64,000 nucleotides of DNA, taken from positions 62,001 through 126,000 of the forward strand of contig JAJXZL010000002.1 in assembly GCA_021780075.1 (NCBI GenBank), given 5' to 3'. Below are positions 23,562 through 36,937 of the stretch, piece after piece. A program made the translations under genes and the position numbers. Numbering within the stretch: the first letter of the stretch is position 1; every line of letters starts with the position of its first letter. The notes under the pieces were generated by a model. That model had not been told where the DNA came from. It searched no databases and was given only the letters and a program-made list of their open reading frames with translations. This DNA is from Acidobacteriota bacterium. Lineage in GTDB: Bacteria; Acidobacteriota; Terriglobia; Terriglobales; Acidobacteriaceae.

Positions 23562-23653
23562 CTCCTACCGCGGTGATTCAACCTGAAATCTCCGGCTTAC
23601 GCATATCTTCTTAAATAGCCGTCACTCCGGCTGAACAGGAAACGCTGGTGCCC

Positions 23654-26308
23654 ATGAACAAAATTTTCGCTCCGTGTCTCGTTGCCATGCTTGCGTTGCC
23701 GATAGCTCTGCATGCAGAAGCCGTCACCCATCTTCGTGATGACTGGCGCGTACAATCGGCCTGCAAACTCAATGTGATTGGCGAAACCATTTCGACCGCC
23801 GGATTCACGGTCGATGGATGGCTAAAGACCTCAGTGCCCAGTACTGTGCTGGCTGCGCAGGTCGCGAACGGAGTGCTCCCGGACCCCTACTATGGTTCCA
23901 ACCTCCGCCAGATCCCCGGCACAGACTATCCAGTCGGGAGAAATTTTTCCAACCTTCCGATGTCGCAGGATAGCCCATACCGCTGCGGCTGGTGGTATCG
24001 GAGCGAGTTCACCGCGCCAGCAGCATCCCTCCAGAATCAGCGTTTTTGGCTGCACTTTGCCGGCATCAACTATCGCGCCGAGATTTGGCTCAACGGACAC
24101 CGGATCGCGGATTCGACAACAGTGGCCGGCGCCTATCGCACCTACGACTTCGATGTCACCGAGTTGCTAAAACCGGGCAAGACGAATGTGCTTGCAGTTG
24201 AGACTTTCGCGCCAACTGAAAAGGACCTGGGCATCAACTGGGTCGACTGGAATCCCTGCCCGCCCGATAAGGACATGGGTCTATGGGGTGCGGTCGATCT
24301 GGTCACAAGTGGTGCGGTCACCCTGCGCTCGCCTATGGCCGTAACGCATTTTGAAAATGCCGAGCTCGCAACCGCGGACCTGACCGTGTACGCCGAGTTG
24401 CACAATTCAACCGGAGCCACCGTGAAGGGTGTCGTCACCGGCTCGGCTGCAGGAGTGCAATTCGAGCAGCCGATTGAACTGGCGGCACACGAAGACCGTA
24501 CCGTGATCTTTAATCCGGAACAATTCCCCGCCTTGCGCATCCGAAATCCGAAGCCGTGGTGGCCCTACCAGATGGGCAATCCGCATCTCGAGCGCCTTTC
24601 CATGAGCTTCAGCGCAAAGGGCCAGATCACGGACCAGAAAAGCGTGGACTTCGGCATCCGCGAGGTCACCTCGGAGCTTACGTCCAATGGCAGCCGGCTG
24701 TTTCGCATCAACGGGAAACCAATCCTGATTCGAGGCGCCGGCTGGTCGCAGGATATGCTGCTGCGCTCGAATGACAACCGCCTGCGCGATCAGATACGCA
24801 TGGTGCGCGATATGAATCTGAATACGATTCGCTTGGAAGGCAAACTGGAGACCGATAAGTTCTTTCAGCTGGCCGACCAGCAGGGCATCCTGGTAATGCT
24901 CGGATGGTGCTGTTGCGATCATTGGGAACGGTGGAATACATGGACTCCGGAAGACCATACAATCGCCACCGCTTCTCTGCGCGCGCAACTTCTTCGCCTC
25001 CGCCAGCACGCCAGCCTGCTCGTCTGGCTGAATGGAAGCGACAATCCGCCACCGGCCGACGTAGAGAGTGCATATCTGAAAGTTGAATCTGAGACACATT
25101 GGCCCAATCCGGTACTCTCGTCGGCAACAGGCACACCCACTACAGTAACCGGCGAAAGCGGAGTAAAGATGTCTGGCCCCTACGATTACGTCGCGCCGAG
25201 CTACTGGTATGTGGGCACGCACTACGGAGGCGCTTCGGGATTCAATACCGAAACAAGCCCCGGTCCAGCCATTCCGTCGCTGGCGAGCCGCCAGAAGTTC
25301 CTGCCCGACCCGGATGTCTGGCCTCCTTCATCCACATGGAGCCTGCATTACGGCGGCGGTGAATTTGTAAACCTGAAAGTCTTCGACGAAGCCATGGATG
25401 CCGTGTACGCCAAACCACGCTCCGCTGCTGAATATGAACGCATGGCGCAGACCATGGAATACGACTCCGAGCGTGCAATGTTCGAGGCCTACGCCAAAAA
25501 CAAGTATGTGTCCACGGGAGTCATTCAATGGATGCTCAACAATGCCTGGCCCTCGATGATCTGGCATCTGTACGACTACTACCTCGATGCGGGAGGCGGC
25601 TATTTTGGCACCAAGAAGGCTTGCGAGCCGTTGCACATTCAGTATTCCTACGATGACCGTTCGATTGTGGTGGTCAACAGCACCGCTCAATCCGTCTCAG
25701 GACTGCATGCCAGCATCAGCGTCCACAACCTTGGCTGGAAGGAAGTCTACCGCGCAGAGACGGTCGTAAATTCGGGCATCGATAGCGCCCAGCGCATCTT
25801 CGACATACCTGACAGTCTTTATTCTGGCGACGATAGAATCTTCTTCATCGATCTGTCTCTGAAGGATGCGGCGGGCCATGAGGTCAGCCACAACTTCTAC
25901 TGGGTGCCGGTCACGCTCACTACATTTGATTGGGAGAAGACCGACTACACGCATACGCCAGCGGAGCGCCATGAAGACCTTACTGCGCTCACAAATTTGC
26001 CCCCAGCCAAAGTTCTGGCGCACGCTGAAATCGCGAACACGCCCCGCGGCCGTGAGGTCCGTCTGCATCTCGAGAACACATCCGCTGCACTCGCCTTCCA
26101 GATCCGTGCTGCTGTCCGCACGCCGTCCGGAGGCCTCATCGCGCCCGTGTTCTGGTCAGACAACTGGATCGAGCTGCCTCCGGGTGAATCGACGACGCTG
26201 ACGGCGCTGCTGCCGGAAGGCGCCGACGGCGTGCCCGCCGTGCAGATCGAAGGCTGGAATATTGCCTCCGTAAGCATCGCACCCACAGCCGTTGCGGCGG
26301 CAAACTGA
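23654..26308 (+). CDS. GH2 glycosidase, exo-beta-D-glucosaminidase-like
   Basis: An 884-residue secreted enzyme. ATG 23654 starts MNKIFAPCLVAMLALPIAL with cleavage near LHA; a GTG two codons earlier is possible. Domain order is that of GH2: jelly-roll sugar-binding domain (WYRSEFTAPA, FAGINYRAEIWLNG), two Ig-like domains, TIM barrel and C-terminal beta domains. The closest remembered match is the exo-beta-glucosaminidase CsxA of Amycolatopsis, sharing WLNGSDNPPP (its Asp is the acid/base), GPYDYVAPSYWY, FNTETSPG (its Glu is the nucleophile), STGVIQWMLNNAWPS and KKACEPLHIQYS. It would release glucosamine from the non-reducing end of chitosan oligomers; beta-mannosidase is the main alternative. 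Promoter and operator lie just upstream. Confidence 0.85.
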   Translation: MNKIFAPCLVAMLALPIALHAEAVTHLRDDWRVQSACKLNVIGETISTAGFTVDGWLKTSVPSTVLAAQVANGVLPDPYYGSNLRQIPGTDYPVGRNFSNLPMSQDSPYRCGWWYRSEFTAPAASLQNQRFWLHFAGINYRAEIWLNGHRIADSTTVAGAYRTYDFDVTELLKPGKTNVLAVETFAPTEKDLGINWVDWNPCPPDKDMGLWGAVDLVTSGAVTLRSPMAVTHFENAELATADLTVYAELHNSTGATVKGVVTGSAAGVQFEQPIELAAHEDRTVIFNPEQFPALRIRNPKPWWPYQMGNPHLERLSMSFSAKGQITDQKSVDFGIREVTSELTSNGSRLFRINGKPILIRGAGWSQDMLLRSNDNRLRDQIRMVRDMNLNTIRLEGKLETDKFFQLADQQGILVMLGWCCCDHWERWNTWTPEDHTIATASLRAQLLRLRQHASLLVWLNGSDNPPPADVESAYLKVESETHWPNPVLSSATGTPTTVTGESGVKMSGPYDYVAPSYWYVGTHYGGASGFNTETSPGPAIPSLASRQKFLPDPDVWPPSSTWSLHYGGGEFVNLKVFDEAMDAVYAKPRSAAEYERMAQTMEYDSERAMFEAYAKNKYVSTGVIQWMLNNAWPSMIWHLYDYYLDAGGGYFGTKKACEPLHIQYSYDDRSIVVVNSTAQSVSGLHASISVHNLGWKEVYRAETVVNSGIDSAQRIFDIPDSLYSGDDRIFFIDLSLKDAAGHEVSHNFYWVPVTLTTFDWEKTDYTHTPAERHEDLTALTNLPPAKVLAHAEIANTPRGREVRLHLENTSAALAFQIRAAVRTPSGGLIAPVFWSDNWIELPPGESTTLTALLPEGADGVPAVQIEGWNIASVSIAPTAVAAAN

Positions 26309-26598: not shown

Positions 26599-28467
26599 TC
26601 AATAAGCCAACGCCACGCCGTCCGCGCGCATCTCGCTCGCTGCAATGTACACCCTGTCGCTCCCGTTCCTGCGTGGCTCAATGCATTCGTACCGTCCAAA
26701 GCCACCGTCAGAAGGCCCTATCGGCCAACCCATTGCCTTCAGCGCCCTGCGCGTCTCCGCCGGGATGCCCGTCTCCAGATGCAGAAGTCCCATCGGCCCC
26801 ATGCCTGGAGCATCTTCTCCCATGCTTTGCGATGAGCCTTCGTGGTGCCAGCGCGGACTGTCGCCGGCCGCCTGCGCATCCAGCCCAAAATCCACGCGGT
26901 TCAGCACAATCTGCACCTGCCCCTGCGGCTGCATGTCGCCTCCCATCACGCCAAACGACATCCATGGTGCGCCATCCTTCGTCGCAAAGCCGGGAATGAT
27001 GGTCTGGAAGGGCCTCTTGCCGGGCGCATACAGGTTCGGGTGCCCATCCTTGAGTGAAAACAGTTCGCCCCGGTCCTGAAACATGAATCCCAGTCCGTCG
27101 GCAACCAGCCCCGACCCCATACCGCGAAAGTTCGACTGAATCATTGACACCATCATCCCGTCTGAATCGGCCGTGGTGAAGTAGGTCGTATCACCGTGGC
27201 TCGGCGCTTGGCCTGGGTACACCGGCGTTAGAATCCGGTCTTGCCGGATCAGCCGTGCCCGCTCGCGCGCATACTCCTTGGAGTTCAGCCACTCAGTGGG
27301 AATCTTCGCGAAGTGCGGGTCTGCATAGTAGCGGGCGCGGTCTTCATACGCCAGCCTCTTGGCCTCCACCTGCGTATGAAGCGCCGCCGTGGACTGGAAT
27401 CCCATCTCTCGCAGATCAAAGTTCTCCAGGATGTTCAGGATCTGTAGCGTTGCCAGGCCTTGGGTATTCGCGGCCATGCCGTACACGTCCACGCCACGGT
27501 AGTTCGTCACCAGCGGATCGGACCACTCCGCATGTTGGTCGCGCAGATCGTCATAGGAAAGCCACCCGCCGATTCTCTTAAAGTACGCATCGATCGTGTG
27601 CGCAATGGGCCCGTCATAAAACGCATCACGGCCGCCCTGCGCAACCAGCCGGTAGGTGTGCGCCAGGTCCGGATTCCTGAAGACGTCTCCCTCGCCCGGC
27701 GCTTTGCCGCTCGGAGCATAGGTGTGCAGCGCATTGGCCGTCTCTTCCACGCCAGATCCCGGCCGTACAAAAATCGCCATGTTGCGCTTGATGTAGAACC
27801 CGATAATCTGCGGCACTGGCACGCCGCTCTCGCACAGGTGGATCGCCGGCTCAAACAGCTCTGCCCACTTTAACCGGCCGTATCGCTGGTGCAGCGTCCA
27901 CCATGCGTCCAAAGCGCCGGGCGTCGAAACTGCGATAGCTCCCAGCCGCGGAATCACACCGTTCTTTGCGCGGGAACGCACAGTCTCAAGGCTCAACGAC
28001 CTGGGCGAGCGGCCGGACCCAGCCAGGCTCACAACCTTATGCAGCTTTGGATCCCACACCATCGCAAAGCAGTCCCCGCCAAGCCCTGAGCTTGTCGGCT
28101 CCAGAAAGCCCAGGCACGCGTTGGCCGCAATCGCCGCATCTGCAGCCGACCCGCCCCGCTTCAGAATCTCAATCGCCGTGAGCGTGGCAATCGGCTGTGC
28201 CGTGCCTGCGGCGCCGGAGCAGCCCATGGCCGCAGACCGGCTTGCAAAGCTCGCTCCAGAGACCCGGTCGCCTGCGTGCACATCCGGCCTCACAAACCGC
28301 TCGGCACCGGCTGGCTGAAACTTGGGAAGCTGTTCTACGGGCACGCCGGCGGCGCCAGCTTCAGTTTGCTTGGACCCCGTGGCTTGTGCGCTGGCCGAAG
28401 CGCTCTGCGGCGAAAAACCGCCGGCAGCAGCCAGTGGAAGAGAAGCAAGAAATGTACGGCGACGCAT
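26599..28467 (-). CDS. ggt: Gamma-glutamyltransferase
   Basis: A 622-residue exported enzyme that cleaves and transfers gamma-glutamyl groups from glutathione and related amides. ATG 28467 has AGGAGG just upstream and begins MRRRTFLASLPLAAAGGF, a Tat-like leader; a further upstream start has no ribosome site. The large-subunit part shows GCSGAAGTAQPIAT, ILKRGGSAADAAIAAN and EPTSSGLGGDCFA. Autoprocessing should expose the threonine of GDTTYFTTAD as nucleophile, and SNFRGMGSGLV plus the late SFGVMGGDMQPQGQ block complete the small subunit, the latter matching the GGxxxPQ signature. The gene is transcribed alone. It may instead act on other gamma-glutamyl or acyl-amide substrates, as many family members do. 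Confidence 0.9.
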   Translation of the reverse strand: MRRRTFLASLPLAAAGGFSPQSASASAQATGSKQTEAGAAGVPVEQLPKFQPAGAERFVRPDVHAGDRVSGASFASRSAAMGCSGAAGTAQPIATLTAIEILKRGGSAADAAIAANACLGFLEPTSSGLGGDCFAMVWDPKLHKVVSLAGSGRSPRSLSLETVRSRAKNGVIPRLGAIAVSTPGALDAWWTLHQRYGRLKWAELFEPAIHLCESGVPVPQIIGFYIKRNMAIFVRPGSGVEETANALHTYAPSGKAPGEGDVFRNPDLAHTYRLVAQGGRDAFYDGPIAHTIDAYFKRIGGWLSYDDLRDQHAEWSDPLVTNYRGVDVYGMAANTQGLATLQILNILENFDLREMGFQSTAALHTQVEAKRLAYEDRARYYADPHFAKIPTEWLNSKEYARERARLIRQDRILTPVYPGQAPSHGDTTYFTTADSDGMMVSMIQSNFRGMGSGLVADGLGFMFQDRGELFSLKDGHPNLYAPGKRPFQTIIPGFATKDGAPWMSFGVMGGDMQPQGQVQIVLNRVDFGLDAQAAGDSPRWHHEGSSQSMGEDAPGMGPMGLLHLETGIPAETRRALKAMGWPIGPSDGGFGRYECIEPRRNGSDRVYIAASEMRADGVALAY

Positions 28468-28775
28468 GGGAGCCTCCTGCGACTGTGACGCCCATTGTGC
28501 ATAAAGAGCGTTCAAGAAGGCAATGCAATTGCCCGATGACGACGAATTTCGTTGCAGCATGGCATATCTTGGCCCCGCAGGCGCTTGAAGGACTTATTGG
28601 TCTTGAGTGGTGCGGCGTCGACGGTTCGCCGGCCATGTTGAGCCCGATTCTTTTTGATCTGAAGATGAATACGACAACTCGGCACGAATTGCGGTACACT
28701 GCTGTTCCCCAACAACGAAGGTAGTCCAAAACGGTTAAGCGGTGGCAGGCGGTTGCCAAAGGCAAGGAGGGTTCG
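28468..28775. other. Divergent intergenic region between ggt and the CBS gene
   Basis: About 308 bases. The CBS gene has a good GGAGGG ribosome site at 28765; promoters for both genes must lie here but none could be assigned with confidence. No additional gene. Confidence 0.4.
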
Positions 28776-29228
28776 ATGAAAATTACCGACACGATTGGAA
28801 TGGTGCTGAAGGGAAAGGCGCAAAACGAAGTTCTGTCGATAGCGCCCGAGCAGTCAGTCTATGAAGCGATCAAGAAGTTGGCTGCATACGATATCGGCGC
28901 CTTGCTGGTCATCTCTGACGGCCACCTGGTTGGCATCCTGTCAGAGCGCGATTACGCGCGCAAGGGAGTTCTTATGGGCCACCACTCCAAAGAGACCCTG
29001 GTCCACGAGATCATGACCAGTACGGTTATTTTCGTCACTCCGCAGCACACCGTGGACGAATGTATGGCCATGATGACACAGCATCATTTTCGCCATCTCC
29101 CTGTGATGCAGGGTGATACGGTGATCGGCGTCATCTCCATTGGCGATCTGGTGAAATGGGTGATCTCCGGCCAGGAAAAGGCCATTCAAGCACTGGAGGG
29201 TTACATCACGGGAGCGTATCCAGGGTAG
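28776..29228 (+). CDS. CBS-domain pair protein
   Basis: A 150-residue cytoplasmic protein consisting only of two CBS motifs: [20 protein letters not shown] ... [12 protein letters not shown] (residues 20-62) and [18 protein letters not shown] ... [11 protein letters not shown] (residues 83-127). Such pairs form a disc that binds adenine nucleotides; SERD and SIGD are the usual phosphate-contacting sites. As a stand-alone module it may sense cellular energy state, but no partner is encoded beside it and similar proteins remain without defined function. An 11-bp hairpin follows. Confidence 0.88.
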
Positions 29229-29337: not shown

Positions 29338-30633
29338 CTACAACACGGCGCCAGCGGCGGCAATCGTCCCCGTACATTCGCCAAAGCCAATCCTCGGCAG
29401 GCCCGCCTTGTGCGCATAAGCGCGAAGCGTAATTTGATCGCCATCTTCCAGAAAAGTGCGCAGTTCGCCGCCGGTCAGTGTGATCGGCCCCTGCGCGCGG
29501 GTCTTCTCCAGCAGGCAGCCTTCCGATCCCGTCGCGGCGCCGGAGATCGTTCCCGTTGCAAACAAATCGCCGGGGCGAAGATTGCAGCCGTTACTGGCAT
29601 GGTGCGTAATCAGTTGCGCAATGCTCCAATAGAGTTCGCGCAGATTCCCCGTGCTCAGCCGCATCGGCGCCATGCCCGTTTGCCGCATATGCCGCGATTC
29701 CAGATCAACATCCAGCGTAAGGTCGATGCCATCCTTGTCCGATGACGGCGAAAGCAGGTATGCAAGCGGCGCCGGGTCACCTGCTGCACGTTCAGCCACG
29801 GGAACGCGGTAGGGAGCCAACGCTTCCAGCGGCACAATCCACGGCGAGACGGTGGTGGCAAAATTCTTTGCCAGAAACGGGCCCAGCGGCTGGTATTCCC
29901 ATGCCTGAATGTCGCGTGCGGACCAGTCGTTCACCAGGCACAAACCAAAAATATGCTGCTCGGCTTCAGAAATGGGAATGCTGCTCCCCAGCGCATTGCC
30001 TGGGCCAACAAACACGCCAACCTCCAGCTCGTAGTCCAGAGACTTGGTTGGCCCGAACAGCGGGTCACCTGCCGGCGGTTTTGTCTGCCCTCTCGGCCTG
30101 CGAATCTCCTGGCCGCTGACCACAATCGATGAAGCGCGCCCATGATATCCGATGGGAACATGCTTGTAGTTCGGCAGCAGCGGGTTGTCCGGACGGAACA
30201 ATTTGCCAACCCGTGTTGCGTGATGAATCGAAGCGTAGAAGTCGGTATAATCCCCAATCTGCGCAGGCAATTGCATCACCGCATCGTTCATCAGGACGAG
30301 CAGCTTCTCCACGCGATCCCGCGTTCCCTTGCTCGAATCCTCCGCATCAAGCAACTCGGTGATCCTGTCCCGCAACGCACGCCATGCAGCCGGACCAAGG
30401 GACATCAGCGGATTGAGCAAATCAGCGCCGCAAGCAGCCACGACCTCTTCCGCCAGTCCGGCCAGTAAGCCTTCGCGCGCGCAGCTTCGCAAATCGAGAA
30501 TCCGGTCACCGATGGCCACGCCAATGCGTGTTCGCTCTTCATGACGAAAAACGCCGTAAGGCAAATTCTGAATGGGAAAATCGCACCCAGCATCATTGGC
30601 GGAGGCAACCCAGCTTCTTTTGCTCAGAGCCAT
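29338..30633 (-). CDS. fah: Fumarylacetoacetase
   Basis: A 431-residue enzyme that hydrolyses fumarylacetoacetate to fumarate and acetoacetate, the last step of phenylalanine/tyrosine breakdown. ATG 30633 gives MALSKRSWV and the usual length; longer forms extend into the upstream gene. N-terminal SH3-like domain (FPIQNLPYGVF, RIGVAIGD) precedes the FAH fold with DYTDFYASIHHATRVG, PIGYHGRASSIVVSG (catalytic-histidine region), LDYELEVGVFVG (metal ligands), VNDWSARDIQAWEY and the PGDLFATGTISG block. It is the last gene of the hpd-phhA-hmgA-orf284-fah operon, overlapping orf284 by ten bases. The assignment is secure. Confidence 0.95.
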   Translation of the reverse strand: MALSKRSWVASANDAGCDFPIQNLPYGVFRHEERTRIGVAIGDRILDLRSCAREGLLAGLAEEVVAACGADLLNPLMSLGPAAWRALRDRITELLDAEDSSKGTRDRVEKLLVLMNDAVMQLPAQIGDYTDFYASIHHATRVGKLFRPDNPLLPNYKHVPIGYHGRASSIVVSGQEIRRPRGQTKPPAGDPLFGPTKSLDYELEVGVFVGPGNALGSSIPISEAEQHIFGLCLVNDWSARDIQAWEYQPLGPFLAKNFATTVSPWIVPLEALAPYRVPVAERAAGDPAPLAYLLSPSSDKDGIDLTLDVDLESRHMRQTGMAPMRLSTGNLRELYWSIAQLITHHASNGCNLRPGDLFATGTISGAATGSEGCLLEKTRAQGPITLTGGELRTFLEDGDQITLRAYAHKAGLPRIGFGECTGTIAAAGAVL

Positions 30634-31478
30634 CCCAAGGCCTCCAGGTCGCGCATCGGCTCCACAAGGGAGCAAGAGCCAAAGCTGATTAAAAATTTCC
30701 GGCGGACTGCGCGCAGTTGCTCGGTGCTCCAGTGGTGCGTACGCCAGCCAATCGCATCCTGCGTCACCTGCCACGCAAAGGGGTCTTCTTCTTCGAGAAT
30801 CTGTTGCGCCTCGCCCGCCTCACCGCCGAAGTGTAGCAGGGCCGCGGCGCAACATAGATTGACGAAGCCATGCATCATGCCCACAGCGCCGTCCAGCTCT
30901 GCCGTCAATGCATGCCGCGAGCGAATGGGATGATGCAGTCCGGCGGTCGCCTTGAAAGGGATGCGCCGCGCAGCGAGAGCCCACAGCATGCCGGCCACCT
31001 CCTGCGTCCCTGGGAACGCTTCGGCAGTCACCCCGCCCATGCGCAACTTTGCCCGCGCGCCTGATGCGGCAATAGCCTCAAGCGCTGCGGACGCGTCGCC
31101 GGAAACCGCTATCTCAAAGTAGGCCGTCACGCCTGCAGGAAGGGATCCGCTCAGGTCTCTGATCTCGGATGGCCGATCCGTTTTGAACTCCATCATCTCA
31201 ATCCGTGCGTCATCGCTGATGAGTTGTGACAGACCTGCGCAATCGGCATTGGGTGGGGCAATGACGCTGAGCTTCATCGAGCGTAGTCGATCGCCAGCCG
31301 CTTCGCGCAACTCGCTGAGCCTCTCCATATTGACAACAAAGCACCCCAGCACCGCCGCATGCGCGCTTTGACTGTAGCTCAGATAGTTCCGCACAGCGGA
31401 GCGCATGTCCAGCGCCGCAGGCGGATACAAGCCGGCGTAGTCAATCAGGCCCTCCAGCAGGCTGTTGATTGCATTCAT
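30624..31478 (-). CDS. Unrecognised protein in the homogentisate operon (orf284)
   Basis: A 284-residue cytoplasmic protein. ATG 31478 is chosen because it sits eight bases after the hmgA stop; earlier codons lie inside hmgA. It overlaps fah by ten bases, so it belongs to this operon. I do not recognise the family. Alternating strand-helix pattern suggests a TIM barrel: MKLSVIAP, RIEMMEFK, VTAYFEIAV, AKLRMGG, PFKATAGLHHP, MMHGFVNL and a closing FGSCSLVEPMRDLEALG. The conserved-looking Lys/His block (FKATAGLHH) could be an active site. It occupies the place where maleylacetoacetate isomerase (a zeta-class GST) would be expected, but lacks the Ser-Ser-Cys GST motif. A replacement isomerase is one possibility, not shown. 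Confidence 0.7.
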   Translation of the reverse strand: MNAINSLLEGLIDYAGLYPPAALDMRSAVRNYLSYSQSAHAAVLGCFVVNMERLSELREAAGDRLRSMKLSVIAPPNADCAGLSQLISDDARIEMMEFKTDRPSEIRDLSGSLPAGVTAYFEIAVSGDASAALEAIAASGARAKLRMGGVTAEAFPGTQEVAGMLWALAARRIPFKATAGLHHPIRSRHALTAELDGAVGMMHGFVNLCCAAALLHFGGEAGEAQQILEEEDPFAWQVTQDAIGWRTHHWSTEQLRAVRRKFLISFGSCSLVEPMRDLEALGWL

Positions 31479-31486
31479 CCCCGTAT

Positions 31487-32794
31487 TCACGCTGCGCCTG
31501 CTGGCGGCACAAAGCGCTTCTTTAATGCCTGCCAGCATTCGTAGTACTCGTGTTGCAGAATTCTGGATTGCATCGCAAACTCAGTGGGACGCACGATGAG
31601 CTGCGTCTCAAACATGAATGCCAGAGTGTTGTCCAAATACTGCGGCTTCAGTGCGGCATTGCTCGCGCGCTCAAACGTCTCGGCGTCCGGCCCGTGCCCT
31701 GCCATGCAGTTGTGCAGGCTTGCTCCGCCGGGCACAAAGCCCTCGGCCTTGGCGTCATACGCGCCAAACACTAGTCCCATGAATTCATTCATCAGGTTGC
31801 GATGAAACCACGGTGGCCTGAAGGTATGCTCGGCCACCATCCAGCGCGGAGGAAAAATGGCAAAGTCGCAGTTGGCTGTACCGGCAACGGCCGACGGCGA
31901 ACTCAGCACGGTATAAATCGATGGGTCAGGATGGTCGAATGTCACCGTGTTGATGCAGTTGAAGAGCGCCAGATCATACTTGTATGGCGCATAGTTTCCG
32001 TGCCACGCAACTACATCCAGAGGCGAGTGATCAATCGCCGCGTCCCACAGCTTGCCCAGAAACTTGGCGACAATATGGAAGTCCCCGTCCCGATCCTCAT
32101 AACTCGCTACTGGACTTTTGAAGTCGCGCGCATTGGCCAATCCATTCGCGCCGATGGGTCCAAGCTCAGGCAGCCGGAATGGCAGTCCGTAGTTTTCGCA
32201 GATGTATCCGCGGGCTTGCGTCTCTGCCAGCACAACGCGAAACTTCACTCCGCGCGGAATCACGCATATCTCGCCGGGAGCTACCTCAAGAGCGCCCAGC
32301 TCTGTTTGAAGGCGCAATGCTCCCATCTGCGGAACAAGCAGCAGTTCCCCATCTGCGTTGTAGAAGAAGCGGTCGTGCATCGAAGCATTTGCGGCATACA
32401 AATGGAGAGCTACGCCGGTTTGCATGGCCGGATCGCCATTGCCGCCAAGCGTGACGATGCCATCGACAAAATCGGTGGCCTCCGTAGGCAATGGCAAGGG
32501 GTCCCAGCGCAGTTGATTCGGCGTGGTCGGGACGGCGGTGAACGGCCCGCTGCGAATCAGCCGCGCTGGTATCTCCTGGTAAGGGCGGTGCGTGACCGAT
32601 GGACGTATGCGATACGTCCACGTGCGGCGATTCGTCGCGCGCGGCGCAGTAAACGACGTGCCGCTGAACTGCTCGGTATACAACCCAAGCGGATGCTTCT
32701 GAGGCGCATTCTGCCCGGTCGGCAACCCTCCCGCAACGGCCTCCGTGGCAAATTCGTTGCCGAAGCCGCTCTGGTACTCAAGCTCAACAGACAT
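31487..32794 (-). CDS. hmgA: Homogentisate 1,2-dioxygenase
   Basis: A 435-residue non-haem iron enzyme that opens homogentisate to maleylacetoacetate. ATG 32794 has GAGAGGTG eight bases before it; the GTG three codons upstream is weaker. Starts [18 protein letters not shown], the hallmark N-terminus, and contains [58 protein letters not shown], the metal region [20 protein letters not shown] with [10 protein letters not shown], and [17 protein letters not shown]. These give the expected His/Glu ligands. Position between phhA and orf284 in a tight operon fits the pathway. The length agrees with the bacterial family. Confidence 0.97.
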
Positions 32795-32806
32795 GGTCGT
32801 CACCTC

Positions 32807-33559
32807 TCACAGACAGTTGCATGAGGCTCGCCGCTCTGCCTCGTGCATCGCCTCATAGATTTGGTCAAAGCTGCTCACGGCAAACAGCTCCTTATGCAAT
32901 TCATCCACCTTCACAGGCGTGTTCACCACTTCATCCAGCGCAAACTCGCGAATCGCGCAATGGCCGTCCATCACATTCCGGCATTCGCCGTGCGAACTGA
33001 TCAAACCGCTGCCATACACCTTGATCTCTCCGCGTTGCCGGATCACTCCAAACTCAACCGTGTACCAGAAGAGACGGCCCAATTTCTCCAGCACCCTGGC
33101 ATCCGCGACGGATGCACAGACACGGCCATAGTGTTCAAGGAAGTCTGCAAACACCGCGTGCGCATGCATCGGCACATGTCCAAATACGTCATGAAAGATA
33201 TCCGGCTCGGGCGTGTATTCGAGCGAGTCCCGGCTGCGCAGCCAGGTTGTCGTCGGAAAGCGACGCGTCGCAAGCATCTCAAAAAATGCCGGCGCAGGAA
33301 GAAATCCGCTGACCGGCGTGGAGTTCCATCCTGTCCTCGGCGCAAGGCGCGCGCTAATGGATGCCAGGTTGGGCAGGCGATCGTTTTGCAGTCCGATAAT
33401 TTCAAAGCCATCCAGATACTCCCGCGCCGCATGTCTTTCCAGCTCGGGAAGCATGTGCCCCACAAGTTCCGCCCACACGCTGTGCTGCTCCTCTGTGTAG
33501 GCCGGATAGTCCTGCTGAATGATGTAGGGCGATGCGTGTGATACGACTCCGGTGCTCAT
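32807..33559 (-). CDS. phhA: Phenylalanine 4-monooxygenase
   Basis: A 250-residue single-domain aromatic amino acid hydroxylase converting phenylalanine to tyrosine with tetrahydropterin. ATG 33559 follows GGGGAGAG. Iron ligands are in HDVFGHVPMH (two His) and the Glu of FWYTVEFGVI; YTPEPDIFHD and GEIKVYGSGLISSHGE are further signatures. It has no regulatory ACT domain, as usual for bacteria. Spaced 21 bases from hpd and 12 from hmgA. It feeds dietary or released phenylalanine into the tyrosine route. The transaminase and pterin-recycling dehydratase are not within the window. Confidence 0.95.
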   Translation of the reverse strand: MSTGVVSHASPYIIQQDYPAYTEEQHSVWAELVGHMLPELERHAAREYLDGFEIIGLQNDRLPNLASISARLAPRTGWNSTPVSGFLPAPAFFEMLATRRFPTTTWLRSRDSLEYTPEPDIFHDVFGHVPMHAHAVFADFLEHYGRVCASVADARVLEKLGRLFWYTVEFGVIRQRGEIKVYGSGLISSHGECRNVMDGHCAIREFALDEVVNTPVKVDELHKELFAVSSFDQIYEAMHEAERRASCNCL

Positions 33560-33580
33560 CTCATCTCTCCCCGCGTGCAT

Positions 33581-34741
33581 CTACAAATTGCCGCGCGCCT
33601 GCTGCTCGCGTTCGATTGCCTCGAAGAGTGCTTTAAAGTTTCCCTTGCCGAAGCTGCGGCTTCCCTTGCGCTGGATGATTTCAAAAAACAGCGTCGGGCG
33701 GTCCTCCACGGGGCGCGTGAAAATCTGCAACATGTATCCTTCATCATCGCGATCAACCAGAATGCCCAGCTTCTCCAGCTCATCAATCGGTTCGTCAATC
33801 GTGCCCACGCGCCTCTGCAGTTCGCTGTAGTAGGTGTGCGGCACGCGCAGAAACTCAACACCCTGCTCTTGCAGCATGCTCACAGTGTGCAGAATGTCGT
33901 TGGTCGCCAGAGCGATGTGCTGCACGCCTGGACCGGCATAGAAGTCCAGGAATTCCTCCACCTGCGACCTCCGCTTTCCCTCCGCTGGCTCATTGATGGG
34001 AAACTTCACGTAGCCATTGCCATTGGCCATCACCTTCGACATCAGCGCCGAATATTCAGTTGAAATATCCTTGTCATCAAAATGCTGGTAGAGCGTAAAC
34101 CCCATCACGTTGGCGTAGAAGTTCACCCACTCATCCATTTCGTGCCAGCCCACATTGCCTACCATGTGATCGATGTGCAGCAGCCCCACGGGCCTCGCGA
34201 TCGGGTCGTTGTCGATGGCGCGAAAATTGGGAAGAAACGCTCCCGTATACTTTCCGCGTTCAACGAATGTGTGAATCGTGTCGCCGTAGGCACGAATGCT
34301 CGACAGCACGACTTCGCCATGCTCGTCTGACAGAACATGCGGTTCAGCAACGCTCACCGCACCCCGCTTCGTCGTCTCGTGCCATGCGCGGCGCGCGTCG
34401 TCCACCCACAGAGCCACCGCGCGCACACCATCTCCGTGGCACTGCACGTGCCCGGCAATGGCATCACTTCTGCGCAGCGATGTCGTCAGCACAAAGCGAA
34501 TCTTGCCCTGCTGCACAACATACGACGCTCGATCGCGCTGCCCGGTCTCCGGCCCGGCGTAGGCCACCAGCGACATGCCAAATGCTGCCCGGTAAAAGTA
34601 CGCAGCCTGGCGCGCATTGCCAACATAGAACTCAACATGGTCGGTCCCCTTCAGCGGCAGAAAATCAGTGCCGCCAGAGAGCTGTTCGACCGCGCCATGA
34701 GACAAAGACAGGGCAGAAGCTGAGTGCAGGGAAGCGCTCAT
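33581..34741 (-). CDS. hpd: 4-hydroxyphenylpyruvate dioxygenase
   Basis: A 386-residue Fe(II) enzyme converting 4-hydroxyphenylpyruvate to homogentisate. ATG 34741 has GGAGG eight bases upstream. Two VOC-fold halves: FLPLKGTDHVEFYVGNA at the N-terminus, and the catalytic C-terminal half with LLHIDHMVGNV (His), GPGVQHIALATNDI (His) and LFFEIIQR (Glu), the classic facial triad. The gating-helix region GKGNFKALFEAIEREQ ends the protein. First gene of the operon; the divergent Lrp/AsnC gene begins 173 bases away. Confidence 0.97.
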   Translation of the reverse strand: MSASLHSASALSLSHGAVEQLSGGTDFLPLKGTDHVEFYVGNARQAAYFYRAAFGMSLVAYAGPETGQRDRASYVVQQGKIRFVLTTSLRRSDAIAGHVQCHGDGVRAVALWVDDARRAWHETTKRGAVSVAEPHVLSDEHGEVVLSSIRAYGDTIHTFVERGKYTGAFLPNFRAIDNDPIARPVGLLHIDHMVGNVGWHEMDEWVNFYANVMGFTLYQHFDDKDISTEYSALMSKVMANGNGYVKFPINEPAEGKRRSQVEEFLDFYAGPGVQHIALATNDILHTVSMLQEQGVEFLRVPHTYYSELQRRVGTIDEPIDELEKLGILVDRDDEGYMLQIFTRPVEDRPTLFFEIIQRKGSRSFGKGNFKALFEAIEREQQARGNL

Positions 34742-34914: not shown

Positions 34915-35415
34915 ATGACGCATAAGACTTCCCCCAATCTCGTTGAGCTGGATGCAATTGCCTGGCGAATTCTCGAATGTCTGCAACAGAATGCCCGCAT
35001 GTCGTTTGCCGAGCTCGGGAGAAAGGTTTCCTTGTCAACTCCGGCGGTTGCGGAACGTGTTCATCGCCTGGAGGATGCGGGTGTGATTACCGGCTATCAT
35101 GCTGCACTCGACCTCGCGAAGCTCGGCCTTTCCATTCGCGCCCTGGTGCGCCTCACCATACCTGGCGGAGACGTGCAGGTTAGCCGCGCCGTCGCAGCCA
35201 TCAAAGAACTCCCTGAGATCACCCGCTGCCATCGCATCACCGGCGATGAGTCATTTGTCCTTGAAGCAAGAGTCGTTTCCATCCGGCATCTGGAAGCGCT
35301 CATTGACAAGCTGTCCGCGCTCGGCGCTACGTCTACCTCAACCGTGTTGTCGTCGCCGGTTGAGCGGCGCGAGTATCACGCCAGCCACATCAAATCCTTT
35401 GACCGATACAGTTAG
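34915..35415 (+). CDS. Lrp/AsnC-family transcriptional regulator
   Basis: A 166-residue protein with an N-terminal winged helix-turn-helix (LDAIAWRILECLQQNARMS and FAELGRKVSLSTPAVAERVHRLEDAGVI) and a C-terminal RAM/ACT-like effector domain (ALVRLTIPGG, CHRITGDESFVLEARV, HLEALIDKLSALG). ATG 34915 is preceded by AAGGA; the much longer frame upstream is antisense to hpd and is rejected. Being divergent from hpd, it is likely to control the Phe/Tyr operon, with an aromatic amino acid as effector by analogy with Lrp-type regulators of catabolic operons. An inverted repeat lies in the shared promoter region. It converges with the permease gene. Confidence 0.92.
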   Translation: MTHKTSPNLVELDAIAWRILECLQQNARMSFAELGRKVSLSTPAVAERVHRLEDAGVITGYHAALDLAKLGLSIRALVRLTIPGGDVQVSRAVAAIKELPEITRCHRITGDESFVLEARVVSIRHLEALIDKLSALGATSTSTVLSSPVERREYHASHIKSFDRYS

Positions 35416-35439: not shown

Positions 35440-36876
35440 CTACTGCGACTCAGCCTTCTTCGTCCGCGCACCGCGCCAATACAAGGTGAGCCCAAGCAGC
35501 ACCGACGCGACTGTTCCCCCAACCAGCTTCAGCTCAAAGCCCAACTTGTCTGCCGAGTCGCCAGGCGGCACCAGCGAAACAAGAATGCCTATGAGAACGA
35601 CGATAAAGCCCAGCCCGCCGGAAATCCACACGCCGGCGATTCCTCCCGGCACCAGGACAGCCTGCGGGTTTTGCTTGCGGTCTTTGCGGTGCGCCAGTTT
35701 GATAACGGCTGCAAACATATAGAGAAACGGAATGAAGTAGAGAATAATTGCCGCGTCAATCAGAAACTGGTACGCGCCGCGCGTCGTCTCATTGATCTGG
35801 CTCCCCAGAAGAATTGCTCCGGATACAGAGGCCTGCACAAGAATCGAGACATACGGTGTCTTCCAGCGAGGATGAATCTTGCCGAATGCGGCGGGCAGGT
35901 AGCGATCGACTCCCACAACAAAGGGCACGCGCGCAATGCCCGCCACAGTACTGCCCACTCCGCCTGCGTTGCCCACGGTCACCAGCACAGCGGCAAGTAT
36001 GCCCAGAAGGCCAACACGCATCGCGACGGACCCAACCGTGATCGCGTGAAACACGCCGCTTTGCGGATCCAGATTGGCAGCAGGCACCAGCGAGAGAATC
36101 GCGAATGTCCCAACAATGTACATCAGCGCAATCAGTGCGCCTGCACCGAAGACGGCACGCGGCAGCGTCCGGCGCGGATCGCGCACCTCTTCGCTCATGG
36201 CAGACACAAGTTCCAGCCCGGTAAATGCAAAGGCAATCTGCGACCAGAAGTTGACCGTGTCCCAGTTCCATGCGGGCAGCATGTTCTTCACGGTAAAATG
36301 CGTCACCGATCCATAGCGCCAGCTCACAACCGCCGCGATGCCCACCAGCATCAGCAGTGGCACATACGTGCCCACGCCGCCCGCATTCTGCAGCCACTTG
36401 CCGATGTTCAGCCCGATGATGTTCAGAATCACCGCGACCAGAAGCAGTGAGAGTGAAACTGTCAGCAGAAACGGCCGGCTCTGTGCAAGCGCCGCGCCGT
36501 GGCCACCCATGATATAGGCGGCCATCGATGCACTCGCAAGCAGCAAGCCAGGAAAATAGAAGACCGTGTAAATCCAGTAAGTCCAGCCGGCGATAAATCC
36601 GTGAAAGTCGCCAAAGGCTTCTCGCGACCACGCATACAGCCCGCCCTCTTCAGGAAAGCGCGACGAAAGCTCATTGATCACAAGTGCCCCAGGCACAAAA
36701 AAGAAGACTGCGGCAATGCCCCAAAGGCTGATCGACGAAGTTCCGTTGTGCCCCGCGGCCGCAATCCAGCGCGGTCCAAGCACGGTGGCGATATTGAACA
36801 GAAGCACATCCCAGAACCCCATTGTCCTGGGCAGTTGCGATTTTGGGTCGCGTGCGGCCGGCGCAGAGATCGTCAT
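35440..36876 (-). CDS. APC-family amino acid permease
   Basis: A 478-residue inner-membrane transporter with about 12 predicted membrane helices. ATG 36876 starts MTISAPAARDPKSQLPR, then GFWDVLLFNIATVLGPRWIA, the first broken helix of the APC fold. FPEEGGLYAWSREAFGDF is the conserved loop of the amino acid/polyamine/organocation family, and FWSQIAFAFTGLELVSAMSEEVRDPRRTLPRA the helix 6-7 signature. The substrate cannot be read from sequence; glutamate/GABA-type or aromatic amino acids are possible. It lies behind thpR on the same strand (61-base gap) and converges with the Lrp-type regulator; uptake of an amino acid degraded by the flanking operons is an attractive inference. Confidence 0.9.
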   Translation of the reverse strand: MTISAPAARDPKSQLPRTMGFWDVLLFNIATVLGPRWIAAAGHNGTSSISLWGIAAVFFFVPGALVINELSSRFPEEGGLYAWSREAFGDFHGFIAGWTYWIYTVFYFPGLLLASASMAAYIMGGHGAALAQSRPFLLTVSLSLLLVAVILNIIGLNIGKWLQNAGGVGTYVPLLMLVGIAAVVSWRYGSVTHFTVKNMLPAWNWDTVNFWSQIAFAFTGLELVSAMSEEVRDPRRTLPRAVFGAGALIALMYIVGTFAILSLVPAANLDPQSGVFHAITVGSVAMRVGLLGILAAVLVTVGNAGGVGSTVAGIARVPFVVGVDRYLPAAFGKIHPRWKTPYVSILVQASVSGAILLGSQINETTRGAYQFLIDAAIILYFIPFLYMFAAVIKLAHRKDRKQNPQAVLVPGGIAGVWISGGLGFIVVLIGILVSLVPPGDSADKLGFELKLVGGTVASVLLGLTLYWRGARTKKAESQ

Positions 36877-36937
36877 CGAGTCACCAGGAGCTCCTGAAGG
36901 AGCCCATCCTGCAACCACAAATCATAAAGGATGAGGC

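Follow-up and report, generated by a model that had tools for sequence, protein, structure and literature searches.

The homogentisate pathway is textbook knowledge, and to our knowledge its maleylacetoacetate isomerase is known only as a glutathione-dependent glutathione S-transferase (GST), an enzyme that cannot account for the pathway in glutathione-free bacteria. In this study, we analysed a window of 64,000 nucleotides (the whole stretch of DNA under analysis) from an Acidobacteriota bacterium (assembly GCA_021780075.1, contig JAJXZL010000002.1, positions 62,001 to 126,000). It carries the tyrosine-degradation operon hpd-phhA-hmgA-X-fah, in which a gene for an unrecognised protein, here called X, stands between hmgA and fah. 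X is likely to be the maleylacetoacetate isomerase of this operon, an enzyme unrelated to MaiA that is independent of glutathione and has a class I aldolase-type triosephosphate isomerase (TIM) barrel. If this is true, one unnamed family, present in at least 571 stretches of GTDB, closes the isomerase gap in glutathione-free bacteria, the 'hypothetical protein' annotations of X can be corrected, and a new chemistry for cis-trans isomerisation comes into view.

Among the described systems, MaiA/GSTZ1 (TIGR01262, EC 5.2.1.2) fills the same gap in the pathway, is likewise a neighbour of fah and catalyses the reaction proposed for X. However, the two do not match in sequence, and MaiA has a GST fold, whereas a TIM barrel is predicted for X; in addition, maiA on plasmids follows fah, whereas X precedes it, and gshB fails to reach the cut-off in 55 of the 56 X-carrying phylum genomes. 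The nearest solved fold to X is that of deoxyribose-phosphate aldolase (DERA; TIGR00126), whose catalytic site combines a lysine on each of strands 6 and 7 with an aspartate on strand 4. X shows the same layout, two lysines and an acid on these strands, whereas an invariant GSCS-type cysteine, a near-invariant GLHH and the association with fah are its own. The mycothiol-dependent maleylpyruvate isomerase likewise works without glutathione, at the corresponding cis-trans step in gentisate degradation; however, this DinB/MDMPI-family enzyme depends on a thiol, and X has no match to such Pfam families.

Two described gene clusters are also relevant. According to the accessible portions of the report on Aspergillus fumigatus, HmgX is an unrecognised protein of a tyrosine-degradation cluster that includes maiA, and it acts at the hpd step (PMC3203155). 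The likeness to X, compared by description only, is that both are unrecognised and belong to tyrosine-degradation clusters. In Rhodococcus opacus R7, the accessible portions of the report name an enoyl-coenzyme A (CoA) hydratase-isomerase (AII08877.1) 'mai' in an hmgA-fahA cluster (PMC4591350). Its accession comes after that of fahA (AII08876.1), whereas X precedes fah; the unlisted protein that, judged by accession numbers, lies between hmgA (AII08874.1) and fahA is possibly X. A glutathione-independent maleylacetoacetate isomerase of this kind was not found in the accessible portions of the open-access literature, which included PMC11889516, PMC10950700, PMC3203155, PMC10005059, PMC10970868, PMC3937715, PMC4591350 and PMC13269418, with subscription journals mostly outside this coverage.

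Gene X, its operon and its host

X runs on the minus strand from an ATG at 31478 to a TGA at 30626-30624; a longer frame from 31538 was disfavoured because close homologues start at the position matching 31478. The end of hmgA and the start of X are 8 bp apart, and the start of fah (30633) lies inside the end of X. Because of this 10-bp overlap, the translational coupling of X and fah claimed in an earlier sequence-only reading of this DNA is a fair reading. The same reading had described an operon complete except for the usual isomerase, and this was borne out, as the neighbours of X score above the cut-offs of NCBIfam equivalog models (Table 1). For phhA the model concerned is NF008877; with TIGR01267 it scores 226 bits, below that model's cut-off of 265. 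The sequence-only reading's description of X as an unrecognised protein of 284 residues with the motifs FKATAGLHH and FGSCSLVEP was also correct, both motifs being present in the translation. A scan for promoters and terminators gave a result under the mean of shuffled sequences.

On the sequence evidence, X is a real gene and not a chance open reading frame (ORF), because a relative was found in 56 of the 297 phylum genomes searched, and all 137 aligned sequences share the key residues. No credible match for X was found in Pfam, NCBIfam or PDB sequences, even at generous thresholds. No NCBIfam family was hit at E ≤ 1, thus neither TIGR01262 (MaiA) nor TIGR00126 (DERA), and the sole Pfam match at E ≤ 10 was PF10126, with 11.6 bits against a cut-off of 23.8; the Pfam search detected no GST domain. 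The family as a whole also has no credible match in Pfam or PDB sequences, two plasmid relatives have none in Pfam, and neither X nor 50 relatives match the DinB or MDMPI Pfam families. Two PDB matches, FlhE for X (E 0.15) and a glucanotransferase for the family profile (E 0.0044), cover a partial stretch only and were set aside. Scattered Pfam matches in 51 family members (six families, one member each, the best being Amidohydro_2 at 0.0054) were taken as chance. In a scan of GTDB species, at least 571 of 589 candidate stretches were confirmed as relatives of X. To judge from these comparisons, X is an unnamed, widespread protein family.

The host genome is 99.5% complete. A zeta-class GST isomerase, which the sequence-only reading had proposed to seek elsewhere in the genome, did not appear: maiA (TIGR01262) had no match at E ≤ 1e-3, in a search whose control gave matches in 3 of 14 genomes, 1 of them over the cut-off. 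There was also no match to gshB (TIGR01380), which scores over the cut-off in 3 of the 14 control genomes; the search did not extend to gshA or to glutathione synthetases of other types. Because gshB has no match, a glutathione-dependent isomerase would be without its coenzyme in this host. The genome carries bshA, for bacillithiol synthesis (545 bits, over the cut-off), and a separate deoC.

Distribution of X, fah and maiA

We searched one set of 297 phylum genomes for X, fah, hmgA and maiA. X is present in 56, fah over the cut-off in 67 and hmgA over the cut-off in 51. Both fah and X occur in 55 genomes, fah alone in 12, X alone in 1 and neither in 229, an association (Fisher P 8e-47) that is descriptive only because the genomes are related. 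X therefore tracks fah in 55 of its 56 genomes, and it does so more tightly than it tracks hmgA, the canonical form of which was found with X in 32 of the 56. It mostly stands directly before fah: at 45 of the 56 phylum loci, fah follows X on the same strand no more than 1 kb away; it is farther off at 2, and the contig ends first at 1. At 20 loci, the next gene upstream of X is hmgA or an HmgA-like gene. Short, divergent HmgA relatives of ~390 aa (L068, L070, L081, L210, L211 and others), which in the phylum score far below the TIGR01015 cut-off, stand in for the canonical form in several X genomes, directly precede X at several loci and look like the dioxygenase of these pathways.

Over the cut-off, maiA was detected in a single genome of the 297 (G198), which has no X, and thus in none of the 56 X genomes; 6 of these contain sub-cut-off GST-like matches to the maiA model and the other 50 none at E ≤ 1e-3. 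The gshB gene was over the cut-off in 2 of 69 genomes tested, G198 and the X-carrying G152, and below it in 12 further genomes. All but one of the 56 X genomes are therefore without gshB over the cut-off (12 of the 55 have weaker matches), and most X-carrying bacteria seem unable to make glutathione. For bshA, 37 of the 56 are over the cut-off, and 19 have neither bshA nor gshB over it. Among the matches listed, seven genomes of one genus (G089, G117, G126, G135, G160, G168 and G222), with G108 as a possible eighth, contain a GST-like match ~170 bp upstream of hmgA; the gene in G160 (L227:6028-6714) is a GST by Pfam. These seven have neither X nor fah over the cut-off.

Across GTDB, we analysed the best 80 of the at least 571 confirmed relatives; at least 5 of the 80 duplicate genomes among the 56 of the phylum (L106/L033, L129/L038, L122/L039, L151/L044 and L185/L061). 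Their record titles name Acidobacteria, Gemmatimonadetes, Cyanobacteria, Chloroflexi, Planctomycetes, Chlorobi/Ignavibacteria, Fibrobacteres, Opitutaceae and others; these titles served as phylum labels, and those of metagenome-assembled genomes may mislead, as with the genome of L157, titled 'Deltaproteobacteria' but belonging to the phylum of the 297 genomes. Of these 80 loci, 67 have a same-strand fah no more than 1 kb after X and 1 has it farther away, and the contig ends first at 3; at 24, the next gene upstream is hmgA or an HmgA-like gene. Searches for maiA and fah covered 45 X genomes drawn from these loci. None has maiA over the cut-off, 8 contain sub-cut-off GSTs (6 of them cyanobacterial by title), and 43 have fah over the cut-off, the other two carrying it in two pieces. 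A maiA homologue accompanying X, which the sequence-only reading had named as evidence against its proposal, was thus seen over the cut-off in neither the 56 nor the 45 X genomes. The X-free genomes in this comparison belong to one phylum, and the sample from several phyla consists of X carriers.

Relatives of X were also detected on 24 plasmid records (E ≤ 1e-3), with no proteobacterium among them: Streptomyces (11), Priestia (6), Pseudonocardia (2), Rhodococcus (2), Kovacikia (1), Nonomuraea (1) and Tsukamurella (1). The neighbourhoods were read in 10 of the 24 records, 9 of them annotated, and some of the Streptomyces regions are near-copies. In all nine annotated records X is labelled 'hypothetical protein' and is directly followed by fahA, and in six a homogentisate dioxygenase or cupin gene precedes it. 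Three plasmid stretches of ~16.8 kb carry hmgA-X-fah, with CoA-transferase genes after fah in two. The plasmid listings covered 60 of 119 fah records and 60 of 197 records. Among the 60 listed fah plasmids, maiA lies 15-73 bp from fah by coordinates in 14, downstream of fah in every case, and is annotated under the fah match in 7 more, all 21 being from Proteobacteria. X directly precedes fah in 7 (Kovacikia and six Priestia), and the remaining 32 gave no neighbour call. No plasmid among the records listed has both X and maiA.

Predicted structure and possible function of X

The structure model of X (mean predicted local distance difference test, pLDDT, 96; predicted template modelling score, pTM, 0.93) is an eight-stranded TIM barrel of alternating strands and helices, in agreement with the 'barrel-type' protein expected from the sequence-only reading. 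The two parts of a GST fold, a thioredoxin-like and a helical domain, are not seen. VIA-align was run on the 1000 PDB chains ranked highest by Foldseek. Its top matches are deoxyribose-phosphate aldolases and the Kemp eliminase KE70, a design built on such an aldolase (Z 15.1, root-mean-square deviation 3.4-3.5 over 213-214 residues), followed by, among others, PdxJ (Z 13.0) and KGPDC (Z 12.1). The list also includes re-engineered deoxyribose-phosphate aldolases that, going by the entry titles, catalyse Michael additions.

Conserved residues were identified in an alignment of 137 sequences, made from 145 loci that all had a match, after 9 with a domain of <200 aa had been dropped and the X of the window added. 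E97, E122, K144, R146, G148, G149, P156, K176, T178, G180, L181, G204, N207, G267 and C269 are among the residues invariant in all 137, and H182 of the GLHH motif has one exception. Of E97, E122, K144, R146, K176, T178, N207 and C269, most are located at the C-terminal ends of the barrel strands, which form the active-site rim of such barrels; in the model, strand 4 has E97 close to its end, strand 5 has E122 in a like place, K144 and R146 belong to strand 6, K176 and T178 to strand 7, and C269 comes right after strand 8. The model thus combines a TIM barrel with one lysine on strand 6 and another on strand 7, as in DERA, and in the best profile alignment, which is not significant, K144 lines up with K167 of E. 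coli DERA and K176 with K201. From position alone, K144 would be a candidate Schiff-base lysine and C269 a candidate nucleophile; the roles of the lysines are likewise inferred from position. Membership of the DERA family by sequence was unsupported, the profile alignments having no significance: hhalign gave P 0.013 with 137 X rows and 28 DERAs, and P 0.083 with alignments A1 and A2, where A1 leaves out 5 of 55 phylum loci as near-copies, for a motif missing at the start or for a split frame (L054, L060, L074, L076 and L085). In its modelled layout, X resembles such an enzyme.

It appears quite likely that X catalyses the isomerisation of maleylacetoacetate, as predicted here. Given this reaction, there is about an even chance that it proceeds by the following lysine/cysteine mechanism. 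Lys144 (strand 6), aided by Lys176 (strand 7) and Glu97/Glu122, would form a Schiff base at the ketone that flanks the cis double bond, with Arg146 and the GLHH and strand-8 loops gripping the carboxylates. Cys269 would attack the activated double bond by conjugate addition, the C2-C3 bond would rotate and Cys269 would then depart, and hydrolysis would free fumarylacetoacetate, to be handed to FAH. The side chains of X would in this way provide the nucleophile that glutathione provides in MaiA. Only tentatively do we extend this to the view that X founds a new family of cofactor-free cis-trans isomerases, which would combine a lysine iminium with the enzyme's own cysteine on an aldolase-type barrel, serve many glutathione-free bacteria and be carried on plasmids with hmgA and fah.

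Several findings weigh against X being the isomerase. Most directly, 12 of the 67 fah genomes have no maiA match and no X either, a profile search at E ≤ 1 yielding only one 10.7-bit match, interrupted by a stop and judged spurious. X and maiA, whose mutual exclusivity the sequence-only reading had proposed to check, are never both over the cut-off in the X genomes searched, and these 12 genomes have neither. Nine of the 12 belong to the host's own family, and two, G036 and G195 (L086 and L087), keep hpd-phhA-hmgA-fah with X cleanly missing; because the rest of the operon is intact there, X is dispensable or replaceable in them. In a tree built from 59 FAH proteins, 12 of them from X-free genomes and 47 from X carriers (those of the 55 fah-and-X genomes whose fah lay in the stretches examined), 7 gains or losses of X are required, compared with 11.1 in shuffles. 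No fah was found in the flank examined at 8 of the 56 phylum X loci, for example in G233, or at 9 of the best 80 GTDB loci, and in G193 the X-like gene is divergent and fah does not reach the cut-off. Furthermore, because X lies before fah and plasmid maiA after it, on the opposite side, the two do not occupy one exact position. Foldseek of the model against PDB gave no match at E ≤ 1e-3, and the sequence relation of X to DERA is not significant (hhalign probability 3%). As to the relative in G193 (L085:3-1115), in which His182 is replaced by Asn and FGSCS by FGGCR, it is perhaps a paralogue with a different substrate.

The 12 genomes with neither gene also favour the alternative that X is a pathway enzyme other than the isomerase, isomerisation being spontaneous or driven by a thiol such as bacillithiol or mycothiol. 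X might then be a DERA-like enzyme whose substrate is a tautomer, an adduct or a toxic by-product of maleyl- or fumarylacetoacetate, or else an FAH accessory, and the fact that X adjoins fah most closely, hmgA not always, fits such a role. bshA is over the cut-off in 11 of the 12 X-free fah genomes and in 37 of the 56 X genomes, a difference that points the same way with weak significance (P = 0.09). In the X-free strains, either a third isomerase exists or thiols are enough. No replacement gene near fah or hmgA in these genomes was found in 9 loci and in the first 30 shared-ORF groups, as far as these occur in at least 3 genomes, where the surroundings contain only pathway genes, antisense frames of these and the shared neighbourhood of one genus. 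However, X and maiA over the cut-off never occur together in the 56 + 45 X genomes, and the plasmid hmgA-X-fah sets retain X, the sole candidate there for the missing step. We therefore regard a role other than isomerisation as unlikely. The sequence-only reading had allowed for either a non-GST isomerase or a pathway-specific factor; the specificity for the pathway is well supported by the tracking of fah and the adjacency to it, while isomerisation itself is inferred.

That X is an isomerase that needs a low-molecular-weight thiol, bacillithiol or mycothiol, appears improbable. The mycothiol-dependent maleylpyruvate isomerase of the Rhodococcus gentisate pathway, as described in the accessible portions of its report, offers a precedent (PMC3937715), and bshA is over the cut-off in the host genome and in two-thirds of the X genomes (37 of 56). 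However, the 19 X genomes with neither bshA nor gshB over the cut-off are not easily reconciled with such a requirement, and X itself carries an invariant cysteine and matches neither DinB nor MDMPI. A role in phenylalanine hydroxylation or at the hpd step (pterin recycling, or a helper of HppD like fungal HmgX) was rejected as hardly conceivable because X goes with fah and not with phhA or hpd: although both genes share the operon of X and the A. fumigatus HmgX is reported to be required for the hpd step, neither phhA nor hpd is seen in the flank examined at many X-fah loci or in the three ~16.8-kb plasmid stretches with hmgA-X-fah, and the best HmgX matches are reported, in the accessible portions, to be within Ascomycota (PMC3203155).

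Features of the window and neighbouring genes

The features of the operon, of X and of the surrounding genes are collected in Table 1.

Table 1. Features in the window, with positions counted from its first nucleotide
Feature	Position	Strand	Description	Evidence or remark
hpd	33581..34741	minus	4-hydroxyphenylpyruvate dioxygenase, first operon gene	TIGR01263, 447 bits (cut-off 277); start approximate
phhA	32807..33580	minus	phenylalanine 4-monooxygenase	NF008877, 294 bits (cut-off 247)
hmgA	31487..32803	minus	homogentisate 1,2-dioxygenase	TIGR01015, 695 bits (cut-off 511)
X	30624..31478	minus	284-aa TIM-barrel protein, candidate glutathione-independent maleylacetoacetate isomerase	ORF; family in 56/297 genomes; model pLDDT 96
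X, strand-6 motif A143-K144-L145-R146	31041..31052	minus	strand 142-146 in model	computed from residue numbers
X, strand-7 motif F175-K176-A177-T178	30945..30956	minus	strand 175-178 in model	computed from residue numbers
X, strand-8-end motif F266-G267-S268-C269	30672..30683	minus	strand 263-268 in model	computed from residue numbers
fah	29338..30633	minus	fumarylacetoacetase, 431 aa	TIGR01266, 525 bits (cut-off 375); start checked
Lrp/AsnC-type gene	34915..35415	plus	regulator, divergent from hpd	PF13404, PF01037; start codon picked by eye
Permease gene	35440-36918	minus	amino acid permease, upstream of operon, same strand	
CBS-domain gene	28776-29228	plus	small CBS-domain protein adjoining operon end	
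Gamma-glutamyltranspeptidase-family gene	26599-28560	minus	near operon	PF01019, 454 bits
Glycoside hydrolase family 2 gene	23648-26308	plus	with exo-beta-D-glucosaminidase Ig-like domain	

The permease is possibly responsible for phenylalanine/tyrosine uptake. The gamma-glutamyltranspeptidase-family gene occurs although the host genome has no gshB match. The Lrp/AsnC-type gene may regulate the tyrosine operon, and Lrp/AsnC genes are also present near pathway genes on Priestia and Tsukamurella plasmids.

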